NCBI RefSeq assembly: GCF_000473105.1
Contig: NZ_KI421498.1
Location: 186,001 to 250,000 of the forward strand
Direction of reading: 5' to 3'
Length of the DNA stretch: 64,000 bases
Origin: Phaeobacter inhibens DSM 16374
Lineage (GTDB): Bacteria > Pseudomonadota > Alphaproteobacteria > Rhodobacterales > Rhodobacteraceae
Below are positions 24,199-44,600 of the stretch, one piece after another. Position numbers and translations under genes: made by a program. The number at the start of each line of letters is the position of its first letter. Within the stretch, counting starts at the first letter, position 1. The notes below the pieces were generated by a model. The model was given only the letters and a program-made list of their open reading frames with translations. It did no database searches and was not told the origin of the DNA.

Positions 24199-24990
24199 TC
24201 AGCTGCGGCTGCCACTCCCTGCAGTGGTAGATCCATCTGCGATCAGCAATTCTGCCTTTCCGGGGAGGGCGCGGTAGGCGGGCGGGGGGCGACGGTCGGT
24301 GACTATAAGGTCATGCGCTGCGAGTTCGGGCAGGCGCAGTGCGGGGGTGTTGTCGGCATCACTGAATTTCGTTGAGTCAACGGCCATGAACGTTCGCTCG
24401 GCAATGTCAGTCATTGCAAGTGCCATGTCCGCCTCGCACTGATCATACACCATGAAGCCTCTCACGGGGTGAACCAGAGAGGCGGAAAGCACAGCAGTCT
24501 GCACTGACACACCGGCAATCACGTCGTAGGCGGCCCTGTCGAAAGCAGCGCCGTCGTGATTGCGCAGTTGCGTGCCGGCCATGAAGACCCGGTTTCCCTC
24601 TTCCATCGACAGCGTAGCAGCGATGAAAGCTGAGTTGGTCACCACCGTGAGGTTCTTACGCCCGCGCAGGGCTTGGGCAACGAATCCGGAAGTAGAGCCA
24701 GTATCAATGGCGATAGCGGAGCCGTCAGGGATCCATTGAGCAACAGCATTGGCAATCGCCACCTTGGCCGCGCGGTTCTGCGACATCCGGGCGATGAAGG
24801 GGGGATCCAGTACGTTCTGGGTGCTGACCAATGCGCCATGCACTTTGGACAGGCGTCCGTCTTCGACCATCGGCTTTACGATTCGCCGGACGGTTTGATC
24901 CGAAACCTGGAGAATTCGGGCCAGATCCAAGACGGAAACACGCCCATGCAAGTTCACGGTGTTGAGGATGTCTTGCTCATATTTCGACAT
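24199..24990 (-). CDS. DeoR-family transcriptional regulator (left edge of the N-methyl catabolic region)
   Basis: A 263-residue regulator with an N-terminal DeoR helix-turn-helix (VLDLARILQVSDQTVRRIVKP, residues 19-39, then VHGALVS) and a C-terminal sugar-phosphate-isomerase-like sensor domain (IAIDTGSTSGFVAQAL, VVTNSAFIAATLS). DeoR proteins usually sense a phosphorylated metabolite. It is divergent from the demethylase gene at 25139, and the 148 bp between them hold tandem decamers likely to be its operator. A second DeoR gene at 43764 sits at the opposite end of the region. The two share architecture and short motifs (SNE/SDQTVRR-type recognition helix, FLAGG/FMAGT). Confidence 0.9.
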   Translation of the reverse strand: MSKYEQDILNTVNLHGRVSVLDLARILQVSDQTVRRIVKPMVEDGRLSKVHGALVSTQNVLDPPFIARMSQNRAAKVAIANAVAQWIPDGSAIAIDTGSTSGFVAQALRGRKNLTVVTNSAFIAATLSMEEGNRVFMAGTQLRNHDGAAFDRAAYDVIAGVSVQTAVLSASLVHPVRGFMVYDQCEADMALAMTDIAERTFMAVDSTKFSDADNTPALRLPELAAHDLIVTDRRPPPAYRALPGKAELLIADGSTTAGSGSRS

Positions 24991-25037
24991 TTTTGACGCT
25001 TTTACGTTGTTGGGTGGAGGTTATGGGCAGCGTTGCC

Positions 25038-25099
25038 CACAATCAACCGACAAATTTCAACGAAATATGACAATTGTGTTGATTTGTGTTGATTTGGTG
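25038..25099 (+). promoter_or_regulatory. Tandem decamer repeats, candidate DeoR operator
   Basis: TTGTGTTGAT occurs twice in perfect tandem (25074-25083, 25084-25093), followed by a degenerate third unit TTGGTGAGTT. Upstream, ACAATCAAC (25039 onward) and ACAAATTTCAAC resemble the reverse complement. Direct repeats spaced by one helical turn are typical of DeoR-family operators. The site lies between the divergent deoR-type and demethylase genes. Confidence 0.5.
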
Positions 25100-25138
25100 A
25101 GTTTGATGTCTCCAACTGTTTTTAACCAGGAAAACGCT

Positions 25139-27562
25139 ATGATCACTCATTCAGCCAAGCATCTCATTATTGGTGGCGGCATCATCGGATGTTCCATCGC
25201 CTATCATCTGGCCCGCGCGGGCGAAAAAGATGTGGTTCTGTTGGAAAAGGCATCGCTGACTGAAGGCGCGACCTGGCACGCGGCGGGTCTCGTCGGGCAG
25301 TTGCGCTCATCGCGCAACACGACGCGGATGCTGAAACGCTCAGTGGCGCTTTATGACCGGCTTGCGGATGAAACCGGAATGGAATTCGACTGGAAGAAAG
25401 TAGGCAGCCTGCGTCTTGCGGCAACCAGAGAGCGCCTGTTGGAGGCCAAGCGGCTGGCGACAATGGCGCGCAGCTTTGATCTGGAAATGGAGATCATTAC
25501 GGCAGCGGAGGCAAAGGAGTTATTCCCTTATATCGATGCGAAAGACCTCGAAGGGGCGGCATTCATTCCATCAGACGGTCATGTGGATCCTGCCAGTCTC
25601 TGCCAGGCGATTGCGGCAGGAGCCCGCATGCACGGGGCAAAGATCTGCCAGGGCGTCAAGGTTGAAGACTTCGAAGTGCACGGCGGACGCATTACCAAAG
25701 TGATGACATCCCATGGAGACTACGAAGCGGAAACCGTTGTTCTAGCTACCGGAATGTGGAGCCGGGAGCTGGCAGCAAAACTGGGTGTGGTGGTGCCTGC
25801 CTGTGCGGTCGAGCATCAGTATATCGTGACCGAACCGCTTCCGCAGCCAGAGCTAGTCAAAGGGCTTCCGACGCTGCGCGATCCGGAGCGGTTGGTGTAC
25901 TACAAACCCGACGCAGGCGGTCGGCTGGTGATCGGCGGTTACGAAGAGGGCACCTTGCCGTTTGGTGACAGGGGCATCCCGGGTGAATTCGTGCGCCAGC
26001 TGCTGCCGGACAATCTGGACAGGTTCGCGCCGTTGGCTGAGCTGGCAGGTCAGGTCACCCCGGTGGTCAATGAGGTTGGAATTCGTCAGGTTATCAATGG
26101 TCCTATTCCCTATTCCGCAGATGGTGATTTCGTCATGGGCTGGGCCCCTGAACTGAGGAACTTGATGCTGTCGACCGGCTTCCTTTACGGTATCGCCGCT
26201 GGTGGCGGTGCTGGGGAGATGATTGCAGAATGGATTTTGGAAGGCCGCCCGAGTTTGGATCTGTGGCCGCTGGATGTGCGCCGTTTCAGCCCGCATCATG
26301 CGACCCGTGCTTTCATGTATCCGCGCGCGGTGGAGCACTACGCGCATCACTACAAGATGCGCTATCCCGGTCAGGAGGCGGAAACCGCGAGAAACCTTAG
26401 ATTGTCGCCGCTACATGACCGCCTTAAGCAGCATGGCGCGGTGTTCGGGTCAAAGAATGGCTGGGAACGCCCACTGTGGTTCGCGCCCGAGGGGGTTGAG
26501 CCGGTAGACCAGCTGGACTTTCTGAACCCGGGTTGGAAGGTCTTTGCGGAGCAGGAGCATAGCGCCGTACGGAACGGTGTTGTCCTGATCGACCAGTCGA
26601 GCTTTTCGAAGTTCGAACTGATCGGCCCCGGGGCCTTGGCCGCTATCCAGAACCTCGCGGTGTCGAACATGGACAAGCCGGACGGTGCGGTCATCTATAC
26701 ACAGCTCTGCAACATGCAGGGCGGAACCGAGGCTGACATTACCGTAACGCGTCTGGGGCGCGATCATTTCTACATCGTGACCGGCGCTGGGTTTGGCGTC
26801 CATGATGCGGACTGGATTCGGCGCCACCTGCCTGAGGATGGGTCGGCGCAGCTGATTGAGATGACTTCGGCCCGTGCGGTAATAAATCTATGTGGGCCTA
26901 AGTCGCGCGAGGTGTTGCAGGCTGTTTCGGAAGAAGATGTCTCTAACAGGGCCTTTCCCTTTGCGACCGCGCAGGACATCACTCTGGGGGCTGCCACCGT
27001 GCGTGCTGCGCGGATCGGGTATACTGGCGAACTGGGATGGGAGCTCCATGTCCCTACAGAGTTTGCGCTGCATGTCTACGACCTTCTGTGGCAGGCAGGT
27101 CAAGAGCACGGTATCCGTGACATCGGCTATCGGGCGATCGAGTCGCTTCGACTTGAAAAAGGGTACGTGTATTGGAGCGCCGATATCACACCTGATTATT
27201 CCCCTGTCGAGGCAGGTCTTGCGGGTCGCGTGCATCTGAAGTCGAAGGAAGATTTTCTGGGCCGAGCGATCCTCGACCGGCAGAAAAGGGAGGGCACTAG
27301 CCAGCAACTCTGTACGTTTACGGTGGATGAGCGGCTGCCGATGACAGGTGGGGAGACCATCTTGCACAAAGGGACAGCAGTGTCCTTGGCTTCGAGTGGT
27401 GGCTACGGGCCGACTGCAGAAAAGACGATCGTTTATGGCTATCTTCCGACGGCGTTGGTTGGAGAACGGGATTTTGAACTGGAACTGTTTGGCAGACGTC
27501 AGGCGCTGCGCCAGGTGGACGGACCACTGTATGACCCGACCAATGATCGCCTGAAAGCCTGA
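25139..27562 (+). CDS. Dimethylglycine/sarcosine dehydrogenase-like FAD demethylase with T-protein domain (copy 1)
   Basis: An 807-residue flavoprotein. The N-terminal oxidoreductase domain starts with LIIGGGIIGCSIAYHLARAG, then ATWHAAGLVGQLRSS, whose His corresponds to the covalent FAD attachment residue of dimethylglycine dehydrogenase. From about residue 430 follow the FAO_M bridging region and aminomethyltransferase (GcvT-like) domains, with GYTGELGWELHVP and RLEKGYVYWSADITPDYSPVEAG. Such enzymes oxidatively remove an N-methyl group and load it on tetrahydrofolate. The ATG at 25139 follows CCAGGAAAA; longer in-frame starts would run through the operator repeats. It pairs with the kinase-like gene downstream. 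A paralogue with the same partner lies at 36130-38577. Confidence 0.9.
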   Translation: MITHSAKHLIIGGGIIGCSIAYHLARAGEKDVVLLEKASLTEGATWHAAGLVGQLRSSRNTTRMLKRSVALYDRLADETGMEFDWKKVGSLRLAATRERLLEAKRLATMARSFDLEMEIITAAEAKELFPYIDAKDLEGAAFIPSDGHVDPASLCQAIAAGARMHGAKICQGVKVEDFEVHGGRITKVMTSHGDYEAETVVLATGMWSRELAAKLGVVVPACAVEHQYIVTEPLPQPELVKGLPTLRDPERLVYYKPDAGGRLVIGGYEEGTLPFGDRGIPGEFVRQLLPDNLDRFAPLAELAGQVTPVVNEVGIRQVINGPIPYSADGDFVMGWAPELRNLMLSTGFLYGIAAGGGAGEMIAEWILEGRPSLDLWPLDVRRFSPHHATRAFMYPRAVEHYAHHYKMRYPGQEAETARNLRLSPLHDRLKQHGAVFGSKNGWERPLWFAPEGVEPVDQLDFLNPGWKVFAEQEHSAVRNGVVLIDQSSFSKFELIGPGALAAIQNLAVSNMDKPDGAVIYTQLCNMQGGTEADITVTRLGRDHFYIVTGAGFGVHDADWIRRHLPEDGSAQLIEMTSARAVINLCGPKSREVLQAVSEEDVSNRAFPFATAQDITLGAATVRAARIGYTGELGWELHVPTEFALHVYDLLWQAGQEHGIRDIGYRAIESLRLEKGYVYWSADITPDYSPVEAGLAGRVHLKSKEDFLGRAILDRQKREGTSQQLCTFTVDERLPMTGGETILHKGTAVSLASSGGYGPTAEKTIVYGYLPTALVGERDFELELFGRRQALRQVDGPLYDPTNDRLKA

Positions 27563-27573
27563 GTGAGGAGGCC

Positions 27574-28506
27574 ATGAATATGGAATATGTCACGCAAATT
27601 ACTGCCGCATTGCAAAATCTGGAGGGATTCGAAGGCCTTAACGCCCAGAAACTCGAGGTTCAGCGCCTGGGAGGTTTGACCAATCTTGTCTATCGTGTGG
27701 AATGCGGCCCGCAGATTGTGATCGTGCGTATTCCGGGGGAAGGAACGGAAGAATACATTGATCGTTCCGTGGAGATTCATAATGCTGAGGTGGCTGCGGA
27801 CGCCGGTGTCGGGCCATTGGTCTTATGGGCGGATCCTGAAACCGGGGTGATGATCAGCCAGTGCGTTCCAAATATCGCGACCATGACCCCGGAACTGTTT
27901 GCAACGCGCCGGGAGGCCCCGGCCCGGGCAGGGCGGGCGCTGCGAAGGCTGCATGACGCGCCTGCGCCTTTCAAATTTCGATTTGAGCTGTTCGCAATGA
28001 TCAACGGTTACATGAAGATCCTTGCGACAAAGGATGCGAGCCTCCCTGAAGGTTACGCAGAGGTTGTTGCTGAAGCCGCTCCCATCAGGGAGCTGTTGAG
28101 GAATAAGCCCGGCACGCTGGTGCCCAGCCATTGCGACCCGCTCTGTGAGAATTTTCTGGATGACGGGCGGCGGATGTGGATTGTTGATTTCGAATACTCA
28201 GGCATGAATGATGCACTTTGGGATTTGGGTGATCTGTCAGTCGAAGCGTGCATGACCACAGTCCAGGAGCAGGAAATGCTGACGGCCTATTTTGGCGCAC
28301 CGCCGAGTGCAGCACAATACGGGCGGATGGTCATCTATAAGGCGATGTGTGATTTGCTCTGGACGCTCTGGGGGCTGATCCAGAACGCCGACGGGAATCC
28401 AGCGGAGGATTTTTGGGCCTATGCCACACGTCGCTTCGACCGTTGCAAGGCCTTGATGCTGGGGCCCTCATTTGCCGAACATTTGGCGGCTGTTGCTGCT
28501 GAATAG
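27574..28506 (+). CDS. Choline/aminoglycoside-kinase-like phosphotransferase (copy 1)
   Basis: A 310-residue protein with a kinase-like fold. It has an N-terminal GGLTNLVYRVECG nucleotide-binding loop (about 32-45), the catalytic-loop region VPSHCDPLCENFLDDGRRMW (about 185), and the metal-binding IVDFEYSGMNDALWDLGDLS. In the catalytic loop the usual HND/HGD is HCD here; the paralogue at 38586 keeps HND. The family phosphorylates choline, ethanolamine or related amino alcohols. GAGGAGG precedes the ATG, 12 bp after the demethylase stop. The repeated pairing with a demethylase suggests the substrate carries an alcohol group. It may instead phosphorylate a different small metabolite. Confidence 0.82.
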   Translation: MNMEYVTQITAALQNLEGFEGLNAQKLEVQRLGGLTNLVYRVECGPQIVIVRIPGEGTEEYIDRSVEIHNAEVAADAGVGPLVLWADPETGVMISQCVPNIATMTPELFATRREAPARAGRALRRLHDAPAPFKFRFELFAMINGYMKILATKDASLPEGYAEVVAEAAPIRELLRNKPGTLVPSHCDPLCENFLDDGRRMWIVDFEYSGMNDALWDLGDLSVEACMTTVQEQEMLTAYFGAPPSAAQYGRMVIYKAMCDLLWTLWGLIQNADGNPAEDFWAYATRRFDRCKALMLGPSFAEHLAAVAAE

Positions 28507-28576
28507 TGGTATCGTTTCTGCCTGACACTTGCGGGCGGTGTTCCGCGCTGTACACGGGATTACTTGGGGGGAGCGT

Positions 28577-29184
28577 GTGATTGTCTTCGACTTCGACGGT
28601 GTGATTGCGGACTCGCTTAGAATGTGCGTGACAGCATGCGGTCGTGCTGCAAGGCGGCAGGGCTGCGAGCAGTCGCTCGCGGAAAATCCCTTTGCCAGTC
28701 TGAAACAGGTTAGTTTTGAAGGCTTGGCTATGAAACTGGGCTCCAGTCCCTGGCCTTTGCAGCGGATGCTTGTCGGTGTCTTGCTGATTGTGATGAGGTC
28801 GCACCGGTTTTTGAGAGTGTTCCCCAAACCTTGCAACGCGTCGCATCATTCAGTCCGATCATTATTCTGTCAGCCTCTGCACGGAGCAGCATAGAGCCCT
28901 TCCATTACTTCCACGGATGCGCAGCCCATGTCTCAGCGATACTCTCGCGGGATACAGCGGGTGGAAAGAGTGAGAAACTGAAAATCCTGCAGAACAAGGC
29001 GACGAGCCCAGTCTGTTGCATCGTAGGAGATGGTATCAGCGACATGGAGGCCGCAAAACTGGCGAATATTCCAGCAACTGGTGTGGCCTGGGGGTGGCAG
29101 GCACCGGATCTGTTGCGTCACGCCGGTGCGTATTTTATTGCCGATACTCCTGCAGATATCATCCAGATCCTGAACTCTCTCTGA
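28577..29184 (+). pseudogene. HAD-superfamily phosphatase, disrupted by a frameshift
   Basis: The first part reads VIVFDFDGVIADSLRMC, the HAD motif I with its nucleophile aspartates, and continues to about 28738 (EGLAMKL). From there the protein-like sequence continues in another frame (LQSLAFAADACRCLADC and so on) through SPIIILSASARSS (motif II) to CCIVGDGISDMEAAKLANI (motif IV) and a stop at 29184. A single-base loss near 28736-28742 would explain the shift. All HAD motifs survive, so the mutation is recent, or it is a sequencing error. The likely start is GTG 28577 after GGGGGGAG. It is the last gene of the demethylase-kinase operon. Confidence 0.7.
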
Positions 29185-29290
29185 TCAATATTCCGATCCG
29201 GATTAACGCGCCTATGCGGAATGGCGCCAGGATCTTGGTTCATTTGCCGGTTTTCTCTGCAGGCGCTTTGATCTGCTTCGCAATGATATA

Positions 29291-29322
29291 GCGCCTCCTG
29301 CGGATAGCCCTGCTGGAGGCGT
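29291..29322. terminator. Possible terminator between convergent operons
   Basis: CGCCTCC (29292-29298) pairs with GGAGGCG (29315-29321) around a 16-base loop, between the convergent HAD remnant and alcohol dehydrogenase genes. There is no clear T-run on either strand, so efficiency is doubtful. Confidence 0.4.
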
Positions 29323-29332
29323 TAGAGATAAC

Positions 29333-30478
29333 CTAGAGGGTATTCATAAACAGCTGGGTTAGGTTTGCTTGGTCCAGGACGACCGGGTTTCCGCCGCAGG
29401 AAGGGTCGATGAGGGCGCCTTTGACGAGTTCTGGAATGGCGGCTTCGGTGACGCCCAGTTCGGACAATCCGCGTGGGATGCCGAGGCTGTCGTTCAGCTC
29501 CTGCACATAGGCGCAGACGCCCTCAAAGCCGCCGTCGATGCCCAGATAATCTGCGGCGGTCTTGAAGCGGTCGGCGATCTCCGGTGCGTTGAAGGCCAGC
29601 ACCGCGGGCATGCAGACGGCGTTGGTGGTGCCGTGGTGGGTGTTGAAGAGCGCCCCGATCGGGTGGCTCATGGCGTGGATCGCGCCCAGCCCTTTCTGGA
29701 AGGCGGTGGCGCCCATGGCGGCGGCCGACATCATCTGCGCGCGGGCCTCAATGTCGGTGCCATCAGCATAGGCGCGCGGCAGGTACTCCTTCACCAGGCG
29801 CATGCCCTCCAGCGCGATACCCTGGGACATCGGGTGGTAATGGGGCGAGGAGAACGCCTCGACACAATGCGCAAAGGCATCCAGACCGGTGCCTGCGGTG
29901 ATGAACTTCGGCATGCCGACGGTCAGTTCGGGGTCGCAGATCACCACGGTGGGCAGCACCTTGGGGTGAAAGATGATCTTTTTCTGATGGGTCACGCTGT
30001 CGGTGATCACAGAGGCGCGGCCCACTTCGGAACCGGTCCCAGCCGTGGTCGGCACCGCGATGATCGGCGCGATGGCATCGGCATCGGCGCGAGTCCACCA
30101 GTCGCCGATATCCTCAAAATCCCACACCGGCCGGGTCTGGCCGCACATGAAGGCAACCATCTTGCCCAGATCCAGCCCCGAGCCGCCGCCAAAGGCAATC
30201 ACCCCGTCGTGATCGCCTGCCTTATAGGCGGCAACACCGGCTTCGAGGTTTTTCTCGTTCGGGTTGGGGTCAACCTCGCAGAACATCGCCCGACCAAGGC
30301 CCGCGGCCTCCAGGATGTCGAGGGTGGACTGGGTGACCGGCAGATCGGCCAGCCCCTTGTCCGTGACCAGCAGCGGTTTTTTCATGCCCGCTGTCGCGCA
30401 GGCCTCGGCCAGTTCCCTGATCCGGCCAGCGCCAAACTTGATTGCGGTCGGATAGGACCAGTTTCCAACAAGAGTCAT
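29333..30478 (-). CDS. Iron-containing alcohol dehydrogenase
   Basis: A 381-residue group III alcohol dehydrogenase. It has the NAD-binding GVIAFGGGSGLDLGK motif (about 90-105), PTTAGTGSEVGRAS near 143, and metal ligands in TGLDAFAHCVEAF (about 195) and GAIHAMSHPIGALFNTHHG (about 265-280). It oxidises an alcohol to an aldehyde with NAD(P)+ in the cytoplasm. It is the last gene of the long - strand operon, directly after an aldehyde dehydrogenase, so the pair probably turns an alcohol into an acid. The substrate may be a gamma-glutamylated amino alcohol made by the GlnT-like ligase two genes upstream; this is inferred. AGGAA precedes the ATG. Confidence 0.9.
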   Translation of the reverse strand: MTLVGNWSYPTAIKFGAGRIRELAEACATAGMKKPLLVTDKGLADLPVTQSTLDILEAAGLGRAMFCEVDPNPNEKNLEAGVAAYKAGDHDGVIAFGGGSGLDLGKMVAFMCGQTRPVWDFEDIGDWWTRADADAIAPIIAVPTTAGTGSEVGRASVITDSVTHQKKIIFHPKVLPTVVICDPELTVGMPKFITAGTGLDAFAHCVEAFSSPHYHPMSQGIALEGMRLVKEYLPRAYADGTDIEARAQMMSAAAMGATAFQKGLGAIHAMSHPIGALFNTHHGTTNAVCMPAVLAFNAPEIADRFKTAADYLGIDGGFEGVCAYVQELNDSLGIPRGLSELGVTEAAIPELVKGALIDPSCGGNPVVLDQANLTQLFMNTL

Positions 30479-30500
30479 AGGTGTGTTCCTGTGATGAAGC

Positions 30501-30565
30501 CGGGGAGGGGGCGCTGCCCCCGCTTGCCCTGCGGCAAGCCCCCCGGAGTATTTCGGGAAAGATGA
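30501..30565 (+). repeat. Intergenic repeat element, copy 2
   Basis: It shares the GGGGCGCTGC arm with copy 1, has CTTGCC/GGCAAG self-complementary arms, and ends with the core GGAGTATTT-CGG-GAAAGATGA (30544-30565). It lies between the alcohol and aldehyde dehydrogenase genes, inverted relative to copy 3 on the other side of the aldehyde dehydrogenase gene. Confidence 0.65.
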
Positions 30566-30571
30566 CGGGGC

Positions 30572-31954: not shown

Positions 31955-31995
31955 GGTCTTCCTCATGTGGTTTGACGGAGGCCACGCCCCCGTCG

Positions 31996-32036
31996 TCATC
32001 TTTCCAAAAATACTCTCGCCGAAGGCTCTGCGCGCC
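31996..32036 (-). repeat. Intergenic repeat element, copy 3
   Basis: Read on the - strand, GGCGAGAGTATTTTTGGAAAGATGA contains the GAGTATTT-N3-GAAAGATGA-type core (31996-32020). The GC-rich arm is short and differs from copies 1 and 2. It lies between the ligase stop and the aldehyde dehydrogenase start. Confidence 0.6.
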
Positions 32037-34147: not shown

Positions 34148-34226
34148 AAATGGCCTCCTTTTCGGCACGACTTTGGGACGGGCGGCGGTGCCCGATCAAG
34201 TCTTTCAGACTGCGCGATGGCAAAGA

Positions 34227-35027: not shown

Positions 35028-35049
35028 GAGAGTATGTTCCGTGATCGCA

Positions 35050-36102: not shown

Positions 36103-36129
36103 ATTCCCTGGTGATGGACGAGCGGCGCT

Positions 36130-38577
36130 TCAGACTTTTACCCGGCTCATAGATGGGTCATAGAGCGGACCGAGCTGCACTTTACAGGGCACCCGCTGAG
36201 TGGCGACTTCCAGTTCATAGTCCCCGCTCAGCACATAATCTGGATCGACGCCATCAGGATTGCGGATATAGCCGTAGCCGATCGACTGACCGACGGTGTA
36301 GCCGTAGCCGCCGGAGGTGAGCCAGCCGACGCGTTTGCCGTTGCGATAGATGGTTTCGCGGCCCATCAGCACCACGCTGGGATCGGTGGTGAAACAGGCA
36401 AGCATCTTCTTCACCCCCCCGGCTTTCCGCGCTTCGGCAGCGGCGCGCCCCTTAAAGGCGATCTTCTTTCGGAGTTTCACCGCCCAGCCCAATCCGGCTT
36501 CGAACGGGGTGTGGTCCGGGCCAATATCTGAGCCCCAGGCGCGGTAGCCTTTTTCAAGGCGCAGGGACTCAATCGCACGGTAGCCGGCATCGACCAACCC
36601 AAGAGGCTGTCCAACACCCATCAGTGCTGCGTAAACAGTTTGGGCGTACTCCACCGGCAAATGCAGTTCCCAGCCTAACTCCCCGACATAGGTCACACGC
36701 AGCGCCTGAACTGGGCATCCGGCGATACCGATGGTGCGGATCGTGCCGAATTGGAAACCATCGTTGGAGACATCGTCCCGGGTCACCGCAGCCAGGATGT
36801 CGCGTGCCTTTGGTCCCATCAGCGACAGGACAGCGTTGGACGAGGTGATATCGAACAGCTGGCAGTTCATGCCCTCAGGAATGTTGCGGCGGATCCAGTC
36901 GAAGTCGTGTGTGGCATAGCCGGTTCCGGTGACGATATAGAACTCATCCTGGGCGACGCGACCGACGGTCAGATCGCATTCGATGCCGCCTTTGTCGTTC
37001 AGCATCTGGGTATAGATCAGCGATCCCACTGGCTTGTCTACATCGTTGGCACAGATCCAGTTCATGGCGGCCAGTGCATCCGGGCCTTTCAGCGTGAATT
37101 TGGCGAAGGACGTCTGGTCAAACAGGACTGCGGCCTCTCGTGCCGCCTTGTGCTCACGGCCTACCGCGTCAAACCAGTTCTGACGGCCAAAGCTGTAGAG
37201 ATCCTGAGGTGTCTCGCCTCTGGTGGCGTCGGCAAACCAGTTCGGGCGCTCCCAGCCAAGTTTCTCGCCGAAACAGGCGCCTTTGTTTTTCAACGTGTCG
37301 TAGAGCGGGGATTTGCGGCAGGGGCGGCCGCTGTCGTGTTCCTCATGTGGCCAAGCCATGGTGTAATGCTTGCCGTAAGCCTCCACCGTGCGTGTGCGGA
37401 TCCAGTCGGTATCGAAATGCGGGCGGCCAAAGCGACGGATATCGGCAGACCAAAGATCAAACGGCGGCTCGCCATTCTTCACCCATTCCGCAAGTGCCAT
37501 GCCGGCGCCACCGCCAGCGGCGATGCCGAAAGCGTTGAAACCCGCACCGACATAGAAATTGCTGAGTTCCGGCGCCTCGCCGATGATGAAGTTGCCATCT
37601 GGCGTGAAGCTTTCGGGCCCGTTTGTCAGCGTCTTGATACCGGCATGTTCCAGCGCTGGGACCCGGCCAAGCGCCTGTTCCATCAGCTGCTCGAAATGGT
37701 CGAAATTGCTGTCGAGCAGGCTGTAGTGGAACCCTTTGGGGATGCCATCAGTGGCCCAAGGGATCGGGTTCGGCTCATAGCCGCCCATCACCAGCCCGCC
37801 GACTTCCTCTTTGTAGTAAGTCAGCCGATCTGGGTCGCGTAGCGTGGGCAGATTGGAGGGCACGCCCTCGAACGGTTCCGTAACCATATACTGGTGCTCC
37901 ATCGGAACCAGGGGGACGTTGACACCAAATCGTTTTGCAAAGGTGCGAGTCCACTGACCGGCGCAGCAGATCACCTTTTCGCATTCGATGCGGCCATGTT
38001 CGGTGATCACGGCGCGGATCCTGCCGTCTTCGATTTCGATATCAATGACTTTTGTGTCCTCGAAAATCTTGGCGCCAGCCATCCGTGCGCCCTTCGCCAG
38101 CGCCTGAGTGATGTCGGAGGGGTTGGCCTGCCCGTCGGTGGGCATGAAGGCGGCGCCGATCACGTCGGAGATATCCATCAGCGGCCACAGGTCCTGGGCT
38201 TCCTTGGGGGTCAGCAGCTCCATCTCCAGACCGAAGGAGTGTGCGGTGGTGGCCTGACGTTTGACCTCAGTCCAGCGTTCCTCGTTACAGGCCAGGCGCA
38301 ACCCGCCGTTCATCTTCCAGCCGGTGCCTAGGCCGGTTTCTGCCTCAATCTTGTTGTATAGATCGACCGAATAGCCCAGCAACTGCGTAATGTTGGCGTT
38401 CGAGCGCAACTGTCCGACCAAACCGGCAGCGTGAAAGGTAGTACCAGAGGTTAGTTTTTTCCGCTCCAGCAGAACGGTGTCGGTCCAGCCCAGTTTGGCC
38501 AGGTGATAAGCGGTTGAGCAGCCGATGATGCCGCCACCGATGATGACTGCCTTGGCAGTTGAGGGGAGTTCAGTCAT
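36130..38577 (-). CDS. Dimethylglycine/sarcosine dehydrogenase-like FAD demethylase with T-protein domain (copy 2)
   Basis: An 815-residue paralogue of the protein encoded at 25139. AVIIGGGIIGCSTAYHLAKLG begins near residue 10. TTFHAAGLVGQLRSN contains the His expected to bind FAD covalently, and PEDGN-like THF-side motifs lie in the C-terminal aminomethyltransferase domain (VTYVGELGWELHLP, LEKGYRAWGSDIGPDHTPFEAG). The active-site region of the bridging part differs from copy 1 in many positions, so the two probably handle different methylated substrates or successive demethylations. The start at 38577 follows TGAGGA. The kinase-like gene upstream ends nine bases before it. Confidence 0.9.
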   Translation of the reverse strand: MTELPSTAKAVIIGGGIIGCSTAYHLAKLGWTDTVLLERKKLTSGTTFHAAGLVGQLRSNANITQLLGYSVDLYNKIEAETGLGTGWKMNGGLRLACNEERWTEVKRQATTAHSFGLEMELLTPKEAQDLWPLMDISDVIGAAFMPTDGQANPSDITQALAKGARMAGAKIFEDTKVIDIEIEDGRIRAVITEHGRIECEKVICCAGQWTRTFAKRFGVNVPLVPMEHQYMVTEPFEGVPSNLPTLRDPDRLTYYKEEVGGLVMGGYEPNPIPWATDGIPKGFHYSLLDSNFDHFEQLMEQALGRVPALEHAGIKTLTNGPESFTPDGNFIIGEAPELSNFYVGAGFNAFGIAAGGGAGMALAEWVKNGEPPFDLWSADIRRFGRPHFDTDWIRTRTVEAYGKHYTMAWPHEEHDSGRPCRKSPLYDTLKNKGACFGEKLGWERPNWFADATRGETPQDLYSFGRQNWFDAVGREHKAAREAAVLFDQTSFAKFTLKGPDALAAMNWICANDVDKPVGSLIYTQMLNDKGGIECDLTVGRVAQDEFYIVTGTGYATHDFDWIRRNIPEGMNCQLFDITSSNAVLSLMGPKARDILAAVTRDDVSNDGFQFGTIRTIGIAGCPVQALRVTYVGELGWELHLPVEYAQTVYAALMGVGQPLGLVDAGYRAIESLRLEKGYRAWGSDIGPDHTPFEAGLGWAVKLRKKIAFKGRAAAEARKAGGVKKMLACFTTDPSVVLMGRETIYRNGKRVGWLTSGGYGYTVGQSIGYGYIRNPDGVDPDYVLSGDYELEVATQRVPCKVQLGPLYDPSMSRVKV

Positions 38578-38585
38578 GTCAGTCC

Positions 38586-39467
38586 TCAGGTGTTTTGAAA
38601 GTCGTCAAGCGCCGCGCGGAAGCGCGCGAGATTGCTGGCGGTGTAGGCCGCGTAGTCAAATTCGATTTTGGAAGTGATCTCGGAAACCATGCTCCACATC
38701 GTTTCGCGAAGAAGCGATGCACATTTCATGGCGTTGTAGCGATGCAGCAGGTCATCGGTCACGGGTGCGCCGAAATAGGTCTCCAGAATCCAGAGCTCCT
38801 GCTGCTCTGACAGCCCGTTGTTGGACGCCAGCCCGCCGAGATCAAACAGTGGTGAGTTGAAACCGGCATAGTCATAGTCAATCAGCCAGAGTCTTGTACC
38901 GTCATCGAGAAAATTGCCGCATAGGAGGTCGTTGTGCCCAAAGACGATGTCGAACGGACCTGCAGCCTGTTCTAGACGATTGCCGATTGTGGCCAGTTCA
39001 GCGGCCAGAGCGGCATGGCGGCTATTCTTGTCCTGCAGGGCGGCTGTGTAGTCGCGGATCACATGGAAAACCCAGAACACCAATGCGGGACCGCGCAGAT
39101 GCCCGGGCACTTTTTGGTGGCAGGATTTTACCAACTCCAGCACCCGTGGCAGCATCGCGGGCGCGCGTATGTCATCCTCAGTCAAGGTATGGCTTTCGAT
39201 GTATTCCATCACCGTCAGCCCTTGCTGGGTGTGCACTACCGCGGGCGCTAAGCCGGCAGCGTGAGCGGCGCGGCTGGCTGACAGTTCGTTGAACCGCATC
39301 ACCTGGTGCAAGGGGATGTCATCGCCTGCGCGTACCACGTATTTGCCGGAATTGTCGGTAACCAGGTAGTTTATATTGGTGATACCACCGTTCAACGGTT
39401 CAGCCGTGATCTCTCCCTGCCAGATGGGCAGGGCGCGGATTTGATGAAGCAGATTGGATTGGCTCAT
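38586..39467 (-). CDS. Choline/ethanolamine-kinase-like phosphotransferase (copy 2)
   Basis: A 293-residue phosphotransferase with NGGITNINYLVTDNSGKYVVR at the N-terminus (about 25-45), the catalytic loop VFGHNDLLCGNFLDDGTRLW (about 180) with intact HND, and IDYDYAGFNSPLFDLGGLAS. It is the paralogue of the gene at 27574, and its catalytic loop is more canonical. Choline and ethanolamine kinases are the nearest functional group. It is in an operon with the demethylase downstream and the ABC permease upstream (three bases between stop and start), so it probably acts on the imported compound. GGAGA precedes the ATG. Confidence 0.85.
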   Translation of the reverse strand: MSQSNLLHQIRALPIWQGEITAEPLNGGITNINYLVTDNSGKYVVRAGDDIPLHQVMRFNELSASRAAHAAGLAPAVVHTQQGLTVMEYIESHTLTEDDIRAPAMLPRVLELVKSCHQKVPGHLRGPALVFWVFHVIRDYTAALQDKNSRHAALAAELATIGNRLEQAAGPFDIVFGHNDLLCGNFLDDGTRLWLIDYDYAGFNSPLFDLGGLASNNGLSEQQELWILETYFGAPVTDDLLHRYNAMKCASLLRETMWSMVSEITSKIEFDYAAYTASNLARFRAALDDFQNT

Positions 39468-39469
39468 GC

Positions 39470-41464
39470 TTAGGTCTCCAGTCCAAAGCGGATGCGGGCG
39501 CCACGGGCTCCTGCGTTGACCAGACGGTCGGCGATGATTGCGATAAAGGCGATGGCCAGCCCTGCCACCAACCCACGACCGGTGTCCGCCTTGGTCAGAG
39601 CGATATAGACTTCCTGACCGAGATCACGTGTGCCAACCAGAGCGGTGATCACCAGCATCGACAACGCCAGCATGATGGTCTGGTTGATACCCAGCAGGAT
39701 TTCCGGCAGCGCCATCGGTAGCCGTACCATTCGCAAGAGTTGCCAGCGGGTGCATCCCGAGACTAATCCGGCCTCGATCAGCTCGCCGCTGACACTACGC
39801 ATTCCGTGCGCCGCGTAACGGACAGCCGGTGCCAGCGCATAAAGAACGATAGCAATCATTGCGGTGAAGTCCCCAACCCGGAACAGCATCACCACCGGGA
39901 TCAGATAGACGAAGCTGGGCAGGGTTTGCAGCGTGTCGATAAACAGGCCGATCGCCACGCCTGCGCGCTTGTTCAGCGCCGCCAGCACACCGAGCGGTAC
40001 GCCGATCAAAGTTGCCAGGATTACCGAGGCACCGCAAAGGTAGACGGTAACCATCGCCTTGGCCCAAAGACCGCTGAAAGCGATCAGCGTGGACATGCTG
40101 CCGCACATCAATGCCAGCCGCAACCCGCCAGCGCGCCATCCGACCAGTGTCAGCATGGCGACGGCCCAAGGCCACGGGATGCCCAGCAATGTTTTCTTTA
40201 TTGGCAGCATGAACCAGTGAAGGAAGAAAACTTTTACCGCCTCGAACGCGTCGAAATAATTCACGTTCAGGTATTTTACTGTCTCGCTCCAGAAATCGCC
40301 CGTGGTGATGGTCTGGCTGATCGGGTATTGCAGCAACAGCGGGGAAAAACGGCCCAACCCCCAGGTGATAATCAGCAGAGACAGGACCAGCACCGTCCGC
40401 TTGTGGCGGGTGGCCTTGGATCCGGGTGCAATGTGGTGGACTTGGCCCATACGCTCTGCGAAGGCCTGGCTTAGCCGGTCGACCGCAATGGCCAGCACAA
40501 CGATGGCAATACCTGCCTCAAAACCCGCACCGATATCCAGACGGCGCAGCGCGGCCAGCACGTCAAAGCCGAGCCCGCCAGCGCCGATCATTGACGCAAT
40601 GATGACCATGTTGAGCGTGAGCATGATCACCTGGTTCACGCCAACCATCAGGCTTTGGCTTGCCGAGGGGACCAGGACCCGCCACATCAGCTGGCGCGGT
40701 GTGGTGCCAGCCATACGGCCGAAGTCGAGGATCTCCGGATCGACCGACTTGAGAGCCAAAATGGTAACGCGGATCATTGGCGGTGTTGCATAGATGATGG
40801 TTGCAACCAGCGCCGACACCGGGCCAAAGCCGAACATGAACAGGATCGGCACCAGATAGGCGAAGATTGGTATGGTCTGCATCAGATCCAGTAGGGGTGA
40901 CAGAATGCGCTCGCCCACGGGGTGGCGGTAGGCCCAGATCCCTGTCAACAGCCCGCCGCCGGCACCGATCGGCACCGCGATCAGCACGGAGGCAAGTGTG
41001 ACCATGGCACTGTCCCATTGCCCAAACACTGCAAGATAGGCAAAGCAGGCTCCTGCCACCGCCGCCAGACCCCAATTGCGGCAATAATGGCCGAGAGCTA
41101 TAACAGCCGCCGTCACAGCGATCCAGCTGGCGGCAGGCAGCAGGGCCTCCGCGCCGGGGCCGGAGGACACAAAAAAACCATTTGCCAGCAGGCTCAGCAT
41201 CAACTCGTAGGGCTGCTCAATCAGCCAGGCGACGGCGCGCGTGACATCAGTAAAGGATATCGGGCCGATGGCTGCGTCTTCTACGAGCCAGGTCATGGCG
41301 GATGAGATATGGCCCTTGAGCGGAAGCACCCAACTTGAAGGCACTTTGATCAGCCAGCGTGCATCCAGCGCTTTGGACAGATCACGGCCAAACCTGCCCA
41401 GAAGGATCGTGACAAGGATCAGCCCCCATACTGTCGCTGACTGAGGGGAGAGGCGGGCGCTCAT
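39470..41464 (-). CDS. Glycine betaine/proline-type ABC permease, two domains fused
   Basis: A 664-residue membrane protein made of two ProW-like permease halves. Each half has the inner-membrane coupling motif: YATPPMIRVTILALKSVDPE (about 228) with GRMAGTTPRQLMWRV, and LYALAPAVRYAAHGMRSV (about 545) with GLVSGCTRWQLLRMVRLP. OpuA/ProU importers usually contain two copies of one such subunit, so this chain may form the whole channel. It overlaps the ATPase gene (ATGA) and is followed by the kinase-like gene. It should import a quaternary or methylated amine with the binding protein encoded at 42600. Confidence 0.9.
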   Translation of the reverse strand: MSARLSPQSATVWGLILVTILLGRFGRDLSKALDARWLIKVPSSWVLPLKGHISSAMTWLVEDAAIGPISFTDVTRAVAWLIEQPYELMLSLLANGFFVSSGPGAEALLPAASWIAVTAAVIALGHYCRNWGLAAVAGACFAYLAVFGQWDSAMVTLASVLIAVPIGAGGGLLTGIWAYRHPVGERILSPLLDLMQTIPIFAYLVPILFMFGFGPVSALVATIIYATPPMIRVTILALKSVDPEILDFGRMAGTTPRQLMWRVLVPSASQSLMVGVNQVIMLTLNMVIIASMIGAGGLGFDVLAALRRLDIGAGFEAGIAIVVLAIAVDRLSQAFAERMGQVHHIAPGSKATRHKRTVLVLSLLIITWGLGRFSPLLLQYPISQTITTGDFWSETVKYLNVNYFDAFEAVKVFFLHWFMLPIKKTLLGIPWPWAVAMLTLVGWRAGGLRLALMCGSMSTLIAFSGLWAKAMVTVYLCGASVILATLIGVPLGVLAALNKRAGVAIGLFIDTLQTLPSFVYLIPVVMLFRVGDFTAMIAIVLYALAPAVRYAAHGMRSVSGELIEAGLVSGCTRWQLLRMVRLPMALPEILLGINQTIMLALSMLVITALVGTRDLGQEVYIALTKADTGRGLVAGLAIAFIAIIADRLVNAGARGARIRFGLET

Positions 41465-42495
41465 TCTATCCCTCCGGAGGTCTCGCCAGCGCCAAACAAT
41501 ACGCGGGCGACGGCTTGTCGGTTTATGCTGCCAATAATGCGGCCGCTATCGTCGCAGACCGGGCGCGGCGCATCGGCGGCAATGATCTGCTCCGCGACAT
41601 CCGAAACCCGGGCGGTTTGCGGAACAGGTGTACCCTCGCCGTCGGTACCGGAGGCCATGATGCCGCCCACGGTTAGAACCTTGGATCGTGGAATATGGCG
41701 GGTGAACTCGGCGACGTAGTCAGTGGCCGGGTTCAGTACCAATTCCTCCGGCGTTGCGATCTGGATGATGTGACCGTCTTTCATGATGGCAATTCGGTCG
41801 GCCAGGCGCACGGCTTCCTCAAAATCATGAGTGATGAAGACGATGGTTTTGTGGAGGCGCGCCTGCAAGCGCAGGAATTCATCCTGCATCTCGCGGCGGA
41901 TCAGCGGATCAAGCGCCGAAAACGGCTCATCTAGAAACCACAGGTCGGGTTCTGTCACCAGTGAACGGGCAATGCCGACACGCTGTTGCTGGCCGCCCGA
42001 CAGCTCACGCGGGTAGTAGTCCTCGCGCCCCTTCAGGCCTACCAGTTCCACGACTTCCCGGGCCTTCACTTCGGCTTCGCTTTTGGGTACGGCCTGAACT
42101 GTCAGTGGAAACATGACGTTCTGCAAGACCGTCAGATGCGGCAACAAGGCAAAATGCTGAAACACCATGCCCATCTTGTGGCGGCGGATTTCAATCAGTT
42201 CCTGTTCGCTCGCGGCCAGCAGATCGACACCATCAAACAGAACCTGTCCGCCGGTGGGTTCGATCAGTCGCGACAGGCAGCGCACCAGAGTTGATTTGCC
42301 GGAGCCGGAGAGCCCCATGATGATGAAAATCTCGCCCTCGGCAATGTCAATCCGGGCGTCCCGCACGGCGCCAATGATGCCGGCCTTGCGGATGTCCTCA
42401 CCGCTGGGCGTGGGGTTGGCGTTCAGAAAGGCTTCCGCATTGGCGCCATAAAGCTTCCAGATGTTGCGGCAAGAAAGTTTGGTCTTGGAGGTCAT
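41461..42495 (-). CDS. Glycine betaine/proline-type ABC transporter ATPase
   Basis: A 344-residue ProV/OpuAA-like ATPase. Walker A is MGLSGSGKST (about 60), the signature ELSGGQQQRVGIARSL lies near 155 and Walker B is LWFLDEPFSALDP near 180. A short C-terminal CBS-like segment (VSDVAEQIIAADAPRPVCDD) may sense ionic strength or nucleotide, as in OpuA. The ATG at 42495 is preferred over 42522 because a GGAG site lies upstream at suitable spacing. Its stop overlaps the permease start. It supplies energy for uptake of the compound degraded by this region. Confidence 0.9.
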   Translation of the reverse strand: MTSKTKLSCRNIWKLYGANAEAFLNANPTPSGEDIRKAGIIGAVRDARIDIAEGEIFIIMGLSGSGKSTLVRCLSRLIEPTGGQVLFDGVDLLAASEQELIEIRRHKMGMVFQHFALLPHLTVLQNVMFPLTVQAVPKSEAEVKAREVVELVGLKGREDYYPRELSGGQQQRVGIARSLVTEPDLWFLDEPFSALDPLIRREMQDEFLRLQARLHKTIVFITHDFEEAVRLADRIAIMKDGHIIQIATPEELVLNPATDYVAEFTRHIPRSKVLTVGGIMASGTDGEGTPVPQTARVSDVAEQIIAADAPRPVCDDSGRIIGSINRQAVARVLFGAGETSGGIE

Positions 42496-42599
42496 CAAGG
42501 CGGCTCCGGTGCCGGTCCGCATCGGCGGCCAGCGGGATTTGTCATGCGGGGAAGAAAGGGGCCGCCTTGAGAGCGGACAGCAGCCCCTAGGGAGTGAGA

Positions 42600-43547
42600 T
42601 CAGTTAGCGATCCAGCCAGACCAACGTTCCTTGTTGGCGGTCATCCAATCAGAGACGACGGCGTCGATATCGACGCCATCCAGGTCCGCCTTGCCGACCA
42701 TGGCGCTCATTTCGTCATTTGAAATGTTGTAGGCTTGCACAATTTCGTAGGCGCCGGGCCATTTTTCGGGCAAGCCCGCCCAAGCGGCTTTCCAGATCGG
42801 GCCGCGTGGTTTCCCGCAATCATACGCGAGATCCGGATTTACACCCACTGATGGATCAGAGTAGCACTCTGAGGAATAGGGCGGGAATTCCACAAACTCG
42901 CCTTCGTATTTGGCCGGTGCCCAATGAGGCACGTAGATCCAGAGCACAATGGGGTCCTGGCGTTGGTAGGCAGATTCCAGTTCGGCAAACAGGGCCGCGT
43001 CGGTGCCCGCGTGCACCACTTCAAAATCAAGTTCCAGCGCTTCTACGCGTTCTTCGTCGAAGCCTCCCCAAGTTACCGGGCCACCGACGTAGCGACCGTT
43101 TGGAGAGGTTTCAGCAGTCGAAAACTCATCGGCGCAGTCCTTGAGTGCCTGCCAGTCCGGCAGGCCCGGGCAGCGCTCTTTCATGTAGGAGGGATACCAC
43201 CATTCTTCGATCGCCATCAGACCGGTTTCGCCCGCGTTGACCACCTTGCCTGAGGCGGTCGCCTCGTCCAGCGCTTCACGCCCGGTGGTTTCCCAGATCT
43301 CCATAGCCAGATGCAGGTCGCCTGTCTTCAGTCCCGCGAATTGCGCTATATAGTCAGCCTGCACATATTCGACGTTGTATCCTGCCTCCTGCAGGATGCG
43401 GCCCATGATCTTGGTGTTGATCAACTGGCCAGACCAGTCGTGCAGAGTCAGTCTGATCGGGTCGGCGGATTCTGCAGACCAGGCGGATGATGCGGAAAAG
43501 GCGGCCGTCAGTGCCGCAGCTCCGAATATTCTGAGGTTCTGTCGCAT
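42600..43547 (-). CDS. Glycine betaine/osmolyte-type periplasmic substrate-binding protein
   Basis: A 315-residue OpuAC-family binding protein with a Sec signal peptide (FGAAALTAAFSASSAWSA, cleavage around residue 24). Trp-rich ligand-pocket segments of the aromatic-cage type can be seen, such as HDWSGQLINTKIMGRIL, AMEIWETTGREAL, EEWWYPSYM and VLWIYVPHWAPAKY. Such cages hold quaternary ammonium groups in this family, so a methylated amine ligand is plausible. AGGGAAA precedes the ATG. It is the first gene of the - strand operon, divergent from the DeoR gene at 43764. Confidence 0.9.
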   Translation of the reverse strand: MRQNLRIFGAAALTAAFSASSAWSAESADPIRLTLHDWSGQLINTKIMGRILQEAGYNVEYVQADYIAQFAGLKTGDLHLAMEIWETTGREALDEATASGKVVNAGETGLMAIEEWWYPSYMKERCPGLPDWQALKDCADEFSTAETSPNGRYVGGPVTWGGFDEERVEALELDFEVVHAGTDAALFAELESAYQRQDPIVLWIYVPHWAPAKYEGEFVEFPPYSSECYSDPSVGVNPDLAYDCGKPRGPIWKAAWAGLPEKWPGAYEIVQAYNISNDEMSAMVGKADLDGVDIDAVVSDWMTANKERWSGWIAN

Positions 43548-43560
43548 ATCGATTTCCCTG

Positions 43561-43716
43561 TTATGTGGCGTTATGTGTGATTCTTGGCGTCACGTAGAGG
43601 TATCGTGCAGTTGGCTTGGCTTTCAGTCAATATAAGCCACAAAAAACAACGTTTTTTCATTCAATACGTCAATTCACGCGCTGAAATATGCTGCTCGCTG
43701 TTGCATTGTGTGGCTT
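43561..43716. promoter_or_regulatory. Divergent control region with inverted repeats, candidate DeoR operator
   Basis: The 216-bp gap between the binding-protein gene (-) and the second deoR-type gene (+) contains a perfect inverted repeat AAAAAAC (43641-43647) / GTTTTTT (43651-43657). It also holds a wider inverted pair AAGCCACA (43634-43641) / TGTGGCTT (43709-43716) and a direct repeat TTATGTG (43561-43567, 43571-43577). These are candidate operators. They do not resemble the decamers near 25074, so the two DeoR proteins may have different sites. Confidence 0.4.
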
Positions 43717-43763
43717 TTTTGAATAGCGCTTAGCAAAACTAAGAGCTTTCCCCTGCATCCGAA

Positions 43764-44600
43764 ATGACCCAGAAAACCACCAACCAACGAGAAGAAGAGA
43801 TCTTGCGGGAGCTTCACCGCGCAGGTGGATCCTGCCGTGTGAGCGCGCTTGCGCAGAAGCTGAGCGTCTCTAACGAAACCATCCGGCGTAATGTCAAAAC
43901 GCTGCAGGAGCGCAGAATTGTGCGCAAGGTACACGGTGGTGTACATCTCAACGAAGAGGTCATTGAGCCGCCTTTTGAAAACCGCCTTAGTTCGCATGCA
44001 GATGTAAAAACTGCACTGGCCCAGGCCGTGGCGGAGACGATCAGCGATGGGGATTCTGTGTTTCTCGACATCGGTTCGACAACGGCCTACGTCGCGCTGG
44101 CGCTCAGAAATCACAGCAACCTCTTTGTGGTTACAAATTCCGTTTTTGTTGCCCAGACGCTGGCCATGCGGAACAATAACAGGGTTTTTCTCGCGGGTGG
44201 CGAATTGCGTGCACATGATGGCGGGGCCTTCGGAGCAGAGGCGCTGGATCTGCTGCGGCGTCTCAACGTTCAGCTAGCCGTGTTCTCAGTTGGCGCCGTG
44301 AATAGCGAACTGGGCTTTATGCTGCATGATCTTGAGGAGGCAAATATCGCGCGGGTCGCGGCAGAAAATGCGCAGGTCTGCATCGTCGTGGCTGACAGCG
44401 GCAAATTCAACAAACGCGCTCCCGTCTCTCTCGACAAGATGTCTTCGATTGACGTTTTCTTCACTGATAGCCCTCCACCGGACGGTATCCGTGAAATGCT
44501 GGACAAGAACGAGATCGAGACCGTTGTTGTCGAAGGCAAAGAGCGTCACGCCGGTTGGTCTAAGTTATTGGCAAAGAATAAGGCCTCTCCCACGCCATAA
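43764..44600 (+). CDS. DeoR-family transcriptional regulator (right edge of the N-methyl catabolic region)
   Basis: A 278-residue DeoR regulator. The helix-turn-helix is VSALAQKLSVSNETIRRNVKTLQ (residues about 25-47, quoted in part: SVSNETIRRNVKTL), followed by KVHGGVHLNEEVIEPPFENR and a C-terminal ligand domain (VFLDIGSTTAYVALAL, FLAGGELRAHDGGAFG). It is divergent from the ABC transporter operon, which it probably controls. Its counterpart at 24199 flanks the other end. DeoR ligands are usually phosphorylated, which fits the kinase-like genes in the region. The ATG at 43764 has only a weak ribosome-binding site. Confidence 0.9.
   Translation: MTQKTTNQREEEILRELHRAGGSCRVSALAQKLSVSNETIRRNVKTLQERRIVRKVHGGVHLNEEVIEPPFENRLSSHADVKTALAQAVAETISDGDSVFLDIGSTTAYVALALRNHSNLFVVTNSVFVAQTLAMRNNNRVFLAGGELRAHDGGAFGAEALDLLRRLNVQLAVFSVGAVNSELGFMLHDLEEANIARVAAENAQVCIVVADSGKFNKRAPVSLDKMSSIDVFFTDSPPPDGIREMLDKNEIETVVVEGKERHAGWSKLLAKNKASPTP

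Follow-up and report, generated by a model that had tools for sequence, protein, structure and literature searches.

The window, the whole stretch of DNA that was analysed, comprises 64,000 nucleotides of the genome of Phaeobacter inhibens DSM 16374 (G000:C6:186001-250000, where G denotes a genome, C a contig and L a fetched locus stretch; the genome has 4.13 Mb in 6 contigs). Positions 24199-44600 hold a gene cluster that we consider a candidate system for the catabolism of N-methylated ethanolamines. The list of open reading frames (ORFs) and family searches place 16 genes here, one of them broken, bounded by two DeoR genes that read outward. On the plus strand between these regulators lie demethylase 1, kinase 1 and the broken HAD gene; the minus strand carries an 11-gene run that encodes, in order, a binding protein, an ATPase, a double permease, kinase 2, demethylase 2, an AraC regulator, an IMPase, an amidohydrolase, a ligase, an aldehyde dehydrogenase and an iron alcohol dehydrogenase. 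The features, by window position, are these:

24199-24990, minus strand: left DeoR/GlpR-family regulator (NCBIfam DeoR-type models, E values down to 1.5e-31, under the equivalog cut-offs)
25139-27562, plus strand: demethylase 1, DMGDH-like FAD/folate enzyme (Pfam DAO, FAO_M, GCV_T, GCV_T_C; start codon of our choosing)
27574-28506, plus strand: kinase 1, choline/ethanolamine-kinase-like (Pfam Choline_kinase, E 8.1e-21; HCDPLCEN motif)
28529-29165, end approximate, plus strand: broken HAD-type phosphatase gene (tblastn with the Salipiger HAD protein, two pieces in different frames)
29333-30478, minus strand: iron alcohol dehydrogenase, proposed gamma-glutamylethanolamide dehydrogenase (NCBIfam Fe-ADH models; near-identical copy in the etoX operon on C1)
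30572-31963, minus strand: aldehyde dehydrogenase, proposed gamma-glutamyl-aminoacetaldehyde dehydrogenase (NCBIfam ALDH models; near-identical C1 copy; start uncertain, ORF open to 32062)
32037-33398, minus strand: glutamine-synthetase-like ligase, proposed ethanolamine gamma-glutamylase (PDB 5dm3, E 5.4e-233; C1 copy 100% identical over residues 4-453)
33395-34168, minus strand: N-formylglutamate-amidohydrolase-like enzyme, proposed gamma-glutamylglycine amidohydrolase (Pfam FGase, E 1.4e-39; start perhaps 34147)
34227-35030, minus strand: IMPase-family phosphatase (Pfam Inositol_P, E 3.9e-49; start uncertain, ORF open to 35180)
35050-36102, minus strand: AraC regulator with DJ-1/PfpI domain, GbdR/GlxA architecture (NCBIfam GbdR, E 1.9e-35, under cut-off; Pfam HTH_18 and DJ-1_PfpI)
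36130-38577, minus strand: demethylase 2, DMGDH-like FAD/folate enzyme (phmmer 5l46, E 1.1e-162; His49, His228, Arg251, Tyr254, Asp535)
38586-39467, minus strand: kinase 2, choline/ethanolamine-kinase-like (Pfam Choline_kinase, E 3.2e-21; PDB 3dxq, E 4.7e-25; HNDLLCGN motif)
39470-41464, minus strand: importer double permease (two BPD_transp_1 stretches; choline permease model above cut-off)
41461-42522, minus strand: importer ATPase, ProV family (TIGR01186 above cut-off)
42600-43547, minus strand: TmoX-like periplasmic binding protein (PDB 4xz6, E 2.6e-79; Pfam OpuAC)
43764-44600, plus strand: right DeoR/GlpR-family regulator (NCBIfam DeoR-type models, E values down to 6.9e-51, under the equivalog cut-offs)
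29349-33387, no strand: ligase-aldehyde dehydrogenase-alcohol dehydrogenase block near-identical to the etoX-type operon of contig C1 (blastn, 99.85% over 4039 bp, 6 mismatches, no gaps)

Every gene class that a sequence-only reading of this stretch had named is present, with the DeoR genes facing outward as it described; its HAD phosphatase is there too, as a gene broken into halves in different frames, the first of which gives a weak NCBIfam match. Such a gene spread over two frames may be decayed or may reflect a sequencing error. Leisingera daeponensis (L020) repeats the whole 11-gene order at 72-94% identity; of the two outermost genes, both incomplete there, the alcohol dehydrogenase is truncated by the end of the contig and the binding protein by that of the fetched stretch.

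The back half of the run resembles a known route for ethanolamine. Its ligase had been read as of the GlnT/GMAS type, an assignment we reject, since the protein is nearest to PDB entry 5dm3 (E 5.4e-233), which we take to be Csal_0679 of Chromohalobacter salexigens, and is far from the glutamate-methylamine ligase 9qur (E 4.2e-43). Its neighbour Csal_0678 is named as an ethanolamine-binding homologue in PMC10132767 (papers are cited here by PMC number and for the accessible part of their text). In Phaeobacter sp. MED193 the proteins of the operon RpiR-GGAH-EtoVWX-ETAGA-GAADDH-GETADH become more abundant on phosphorylethanolamine (PMC10132767, citing Vetting et al.); EtoX of this strain binds ethanolamine with a Kd of 7.9 uM, and its pathway is described there as a prediction, close to a route that had been shown in Chromohalobacter and Agrobacterium (PMC10132767). 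Amidohydrolase, ligase, aldehyde dehydrogenase and alcohol dehydrogenase follow the same order in our window, where the module is complete at 29333-34168, and the genome also holds an etoX-type operon layout on contig C1 (L186). Unlike the MED193 operon, the window module is without an EtoVWX TRAP transporter and an RpiR gene, both of which accompany the C1 copy; in their place stand genes for an IMPase, two kinases and two DMGDH-like enzymes, AraC and DeoR genes, and a TmoX-like ABC importer. A glutamine-synthetase-like enzyme likewise gamma-glutamylates ethanolamine as the first step of the GlnA4 pathway of Streptomyces coelicolor, for which the accessible text mentions no kinase, demethylase or methylated substrate (PMC6529630). 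By gene order and sequence identity the ligase, dehydrogenases and amidohydrolase of the cluster represent the published ethanolamine-to-glycine module, present a second time in this genome, and not a novel gamma-glutamyl route. All four genes occur together in 64 of 80 ligase loci, and in Aminobacter NyZ550 and Paracoccus pantotrophus the ligase module stands beside the bhc genes of the beta-hydroxyaspartate cycle, which fits glycine as the product. EutB, by which the cobalamin-dependent Eut pathway would be recognised, is absent from the genome, the E. coli control being positive. Carnitine, homarine and trigonelline, offered by the sequence-only reading as candidate substrates, are not favoured because the ligase module indicates an ethanolamine backbone; for homarine, a 2026 paper reports that Mgd participates in its catabolism (PMC13390433).

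The near-identity of the three-gene block to its C1 paralogue stands out against values of around 80-83% between genomes, and the amidohydrolase paralogues inside one genome are just 68-70% identical or thereabouts. The two block copies of L. daeponensis are 91.7% identical to each other, and the window ligase shares 92-93% identity with Leisingera proteins. The block would appear to have undergone recent gene conversion or duplication, as it has to a lesser degree in L. daeponensis; homogenisation by either process is what one would predict should the two operons depend on an identical set of three activities. In Ruegeria sp. B32 (L097:16083-18314) a gene annotated as a radical SAM C-methyltransferase of ribosomally synthesised and post-translationally modified peptide (RiPP) maturation, together with an Os1348-family NHLP-clan protein, lies directly behind an etoX-type operon.

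The importer at the front had been called OpuA-type, a description that Pfam OpuAC bears out and that can be made more exact, since the closest solved binding protein is 4xz6 (E 2.6e-79), which is TmoX of Ruegeria pomeroyi (PMC8918994). Set against the residue list in that paper, Trp38, Trp85, Trp160 and Glu114 of the window protein correspond to Trp55, Trp102, Trp177 and Glu131 of TmoX, whereas Gly89, Trp203 and Tyr205 replace Phe106, Phe220 and Trp222 (PMC8918994). All seven positions are conserved in at least 95% of 40 binding-protein rows. With four of seven pocket residues kept and those at 106, 220 and 222 changed, membership of TmoX itself is rejected, and we suggest that a TmoX-like pocket with more room would be well matched to a hydroxyethyl amine. 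The kinship with TmoX might be taken to indicate a system for trimethylamine N-oxide (TMAO) or choline, with TmoX-like uptake followed by demethylation by the DMGDH-like enzymes, and TmoX of HTCC1062 does bind choline, with a Kd of 2.5 uM (PMC8918994). Besides the three altered pocket residues, a TMAO demethylase model covers the folate-binding half of the enzymes only and scores far under its cut-off. Moreover, the amine on which a flavin amine dehydrogenase acts must be secondary or tertiary, which neither choline, being quaternary, nor an N-oxide is, and we regard such a system as very improbable. The sequence-only reading had also noted that no choline or betaine aldehyde dehydrogenase set of the Bet type was present; none was found inside the cluster. 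The genome does have a betA gene above the curated cut-off, at G000:C6:296936-298522.

The most consistent feature of the front half is the pairing of kinase and demethylase. We followed it in three samples, with neighbours counted by tblastn, the codon-usage gene caller having overlooked some genes. In the family sample, 198 genomes were scanned for the demethylase clade (at least 59% identity) and 31 loci were fetched from the 36 other family genomes that have it, G021, G022, G028, G111 and G119 being excluded because the gene was partial or close to a contig end. Of the 385 genomes of the class sample, 41 (the window's own included) match the demethylase at E <= 1e-270; counts were made on the 28 loci whose identity is about 62% or higher, none of them from the genus of the window or from the family sample. 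A plasmid collection contributed the 19 records in which a kinase match reaches E <= 1e-50. Kinase 2 adjoins the demethylase on the same strand in 29/31 family loci (the exceptions being L124 and L126), an adjacent kinase is found in 26/28 class loci, and a demethylase match lies 11-26 bp past the kinase in all 19 plasmid records; kinase 1 accompanies demethylase 1 in each of the 11 family loci that hold the latter. These counts indicate that each demethylase has its own kinase. The remaining neighbours in the family loci are the permease homologue (26), binding protein (25), ATPase (25), DeoR (26), IMPase (11) and demethylase 1 (11), and in the class loci the binding protein (11), DeoR (10) and IMPase (2). 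Both window kinases resemble the choline/ethanolamine kinase family (PDB 3dxq, 4r77) in their Pfam Choline_kinase domain and their HxDxxxxN catalytic motif, which is intact in 87/87 kinase rows (window copies counted twice), but each differs from the known family in being coupled to a demethylase gene. A methyltransferase-domain gene (confirmed with Pfam on L129 only) adjoins the demethylase in L127, L129, L130, L133 and L134; four of these loci have it placed so that demethylase 2 is on one side and kinase 1 on the other.

Demethylases 1 and 2 are 49% identical, and both join an FAD amine-oxidase domain to a folate-binding GcvT domain (Pfam DAO, FAO_M, GCV_T and GCV_T_C). They share with mitochondrial DMGDH and Arthrobacter dimethylglycine oxidase, DMGO (5l46, 4p9s, 1pj5), the domain order, the fold, the FAD-site His, the active-site His and Tyr and the acidic residue of the folate domain. 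The AlphaFold model of demethylase 2 (pLDDT 89.9) has 4p9s as its best Foldseek match (TM 0.95; 0.94-0.95 to 4p9s and 5l46), and its His228, Tyr254 and Asp535 align with His225, Tyr259 and Asp552 of DMGO, the first two of which are presumably active-site residues there. The window enzymes differ in being paired with kinases, in their identity to DMGDH of just 35-36%, and at position 251, where demethylase 2 has Arg and human DMGDH and DMGO have Gly and Gln respectively. Arg251 lies three residues before Tyr254, between the modelled strands 245-248 and 253-258, and among the relatives of demethylase 2 that are linked to a kinase 56 of 58 have it (the other two having Asn), with Arg at the equivalent position in 12/12 kinase-linked relatives of demethylase 1 and in none of 27 unlinked rows. 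For these counts, matches of 700 aa or fewer or containing stops were removed; the sets of 60 and 14 rows each include the window protein twice, giving 58 and 12 relatives, the 27 unlinked rows represent 24 distinct sequences and include L180 (56.9%, the next match below the class threshold, with no kinase), and L109 and L158, both with Arg, were misfiled under another label. If it lies near the substrate, Arg251 could hold a phosphate by its positive charge.

Whether the two halves of the cluster belong together can be asked of whole genomes and of individual loci. The ligase is present in 33/37 family genomes with the demethylase clade and in 81/161 without it (Fisher p 6.8e-6, n=198, kinship ignored), an odds ratio of 7.8 once adjusted for genome size and completeness, phylogeny again being ignored. 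On plasmid pPABY1 of Salipiger abyssi (L091) both halves share an operon with EtfB, EtfA, FolD, PurU, GlyA, an L-serine ammonia-lyase and a HAD gene, the additional genes being tools for CH2-tetrahydrofolate, electrons and glycine. The ligase (C7:750815-752164) and demethylase 1 (C7:758041-760434) of genome G197 lie near one another with amidohydrolase- and RpiR-like genes between them (start of L120), and in Ruegeria haliotis (L087) fragments of the binding protein and demethylase remain beside the IMPase, amidohydrolase, ligase, aldehyde dehydrogenase and alcohol dehydrogenase. EutH stands behind the kinase-demethylase pair in Nitratireductor OM-1 and in G355, the sole genome of 385 with such a EutH at E <= 1e-80. 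Three small genomes (G227, G455 and G532), 1.4 Mb in size with 31-33% GC over the stretch that was fetched, hold EtfB, EtfA and an ETF-QO-type gene next to the pair, identities that Pfam confirmed on one of them. The binding protein and permease precede the pair in G227; a ligase homologue (44-45%) next to an iron alcohol dehydrogenase occurs in G227 and G532 but not in G455, and G227 also holds an EtoX homologue (58%). These small low-GC alphaproteobacterial genomes (loci L161, L163 and L167) are like SAR11 in size and GC.

Gene content, the conserved pairing, the co-occurrence, the identity of the ethanolamine module and the intact catalytic motifs are direct observations. On these we propose, with a probability of about 0.6, that the cluster serves the catabolism of N-methylated ethanolamines (N,N-dimethylethanolamine, N-methylethanolamine or both), kinase and demethylase acting in one route. 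The TmoX-like ABC importer would take up the methylated ethanolamine, the choline-kinase-like enzymes would O-phosphorylate it, perhaps before demethylation, and the DMGDH-like flavoenzymes would remove the N-methyl groups, passing the one-carbon units to tetrahydrofolate and electrons to ETF; the IMPase-family phosphatase may then release ethanolamine, which would be turned into glycine by the ligase, alcohol dehydrogenase, aldehyde dehydrogenase and amidohydrolase that make up the known gamma-glutamyl module. That demethylation takes place on phosphate esters, the kinase producing phospho-(di)methylethanolamine, the Arg251-marked DMGDH-like clade stripping methyl groups to tetrahydrofolate and a phosphatase freeing ethanolamine for the gamma-glutamyl route, is a more tentative proposal, to which we give somewhat less than even odds. 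Phosphatases do recur, with the IMPase in the window, the broken HAD gene after kinase 1 and both types in Salipiger.

Several observations weigh against these proposals. An IMPase lies nearby in just 11/31 family and 2/28 class loci, and the HAD gene of the window is broken. Four clade members have no adjacent kinase, of which three nonetheless have Arg at 251 and one Asn, and besides the two kinase-linked relatives with Asn, two more distant ones (L181 and L182, 53-55%, with a kinase around 40% identical) have Leu; because kinase-less members keep Arg and some kinase-linked ones do not, Arg251 is a marker of the clade. A kinase is perhaps not required for such chemistry at all, given that L184:215-6812 and L185:4781-11111 carry kinase-less DMGDH-like genes (about 53%) beside an iron alcohol dehydrogenase (56-59%) and a glutamine-synthetase-like gene (33%), with a TRAP permease too in L185, as L187:7401-11041 does with the alcohol dehydrogenase only; these might be a kinase-free version of the route. 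The substrates could thus be the same and the demethylases could use the free amines, the kinases and phosphatases serving to trap the amine, to make an inducer for DeoR or to channel phosphoethanolamine to lipids. DMGDH-type enzymes do act on unphosphorylated amines, as established for dimethylglycine. We think this unlikely, since the kinase is tied to the demethylase clade in all three samples, separately for both pairs of the window, and since L184, L185 and L187 have Gly instead of Arg at 251. Another recurrent kinase-less cluster surrounds a DMGDH-like gene (49-54%) in L105 and L137-L141, several of which also have a Na/Pi-cotransporter-like and a class-V aminotransferase-like gene; it possibly acts on another N-methyl compound.

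The other difficulties concern the joining of the halves. The ligase is in 0/31 family and 0/28 class fetched stretches, so side-by-side linkage is rare; most neighbours of the pair outside the family, by the gene calls of the class sample, are unrelated; just 1/22 EutH-bearing plasmid records is among the 19 kinase-bearing ones; and the co-occurrence, phylogeny ignored, is non-significant in the smallest and largest genome-size bins. The absence of the ligase and the disparate neighbours would also suit a kinase-demethylase module for another N-methylated amino alcohol or its phosphate, joined by chance to the ethanolamine module in a few lineages. We consider this quite improbable, because the halves are linked in differing arrangements in Salipiger, Leisingera and G197 and because the ligase is so much more frequent in genomes with the clade. 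The halves therefore plausibly belong together while seldom being adjacent, with few linked loci (the window, L020, L091, G197 and the L087 remnants). One pathway for all 16 genes, as the sequence-only reading proposed, is in this sense plausible, and the conserved synteny it anticipated holds for the kinase-demethylase pair and, in L020, for the 11-gene order, but not for the ligase, found in none of the 59 fetched loci.

Regulation may provide a further connection to phosphorylation. DeoR regulators commonly respond to phosphorylated ligands, and those of the window would probably sense a phosphorylated intermediate. A search for a shared operator found that the two DeoR intergenic regions have no word of at least 9 bases in common; the 9-mer TGTGGCTTT occurs in 7 of 21 DeoR/binding-protein intergenic regions, a count made with no shuffle control and from which we draw no conclusion. 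The AraC regulator, at 122.6 bits against a curated cut-off of 480 for the GbdR model, falls outside GbdR.

The enzyme families are all known ones, and the downstream half has already been published. The claim that the cluster represents an undescribed catabolism of an N-methylated amino alcohol is supported by the enzyme classes, pairing and co-occurrence, and 'undescribed' is limited to the import, kinase and demethylase front end because the gamma-glutamyl half corresponds to the ethanolamine pathway in print. For that front end, a TmoX-like importer with two choline-kinase-like/DMGDH-like pairs, the result lists of searches aimed at it in an open-licence library that lacks most subscription papers gave no description, several of the papers listed mentioning dimethylethanolamine; the accessible part of PMC4744692 mentions neither a kinase nor ethanolamine nor DeoR.

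Marine bacteria live in part on the ethanolamine and choline of membrane lipids (PMC10132767), and if our proposal is correct the cluster would supply a branch for the N-methylated ethanolamines that lie between them. It would give a function to a kinase-demethylase pair found in 26/28 class and 29/31 family loci, and would offer an example of phosphorylation enabling N-demethylation. The phosphate-ester route would then be the catabolic reverse of the plant phosphobase methylation pathway, spread across the Alphaproteobacteria, small low-GC genomes included.

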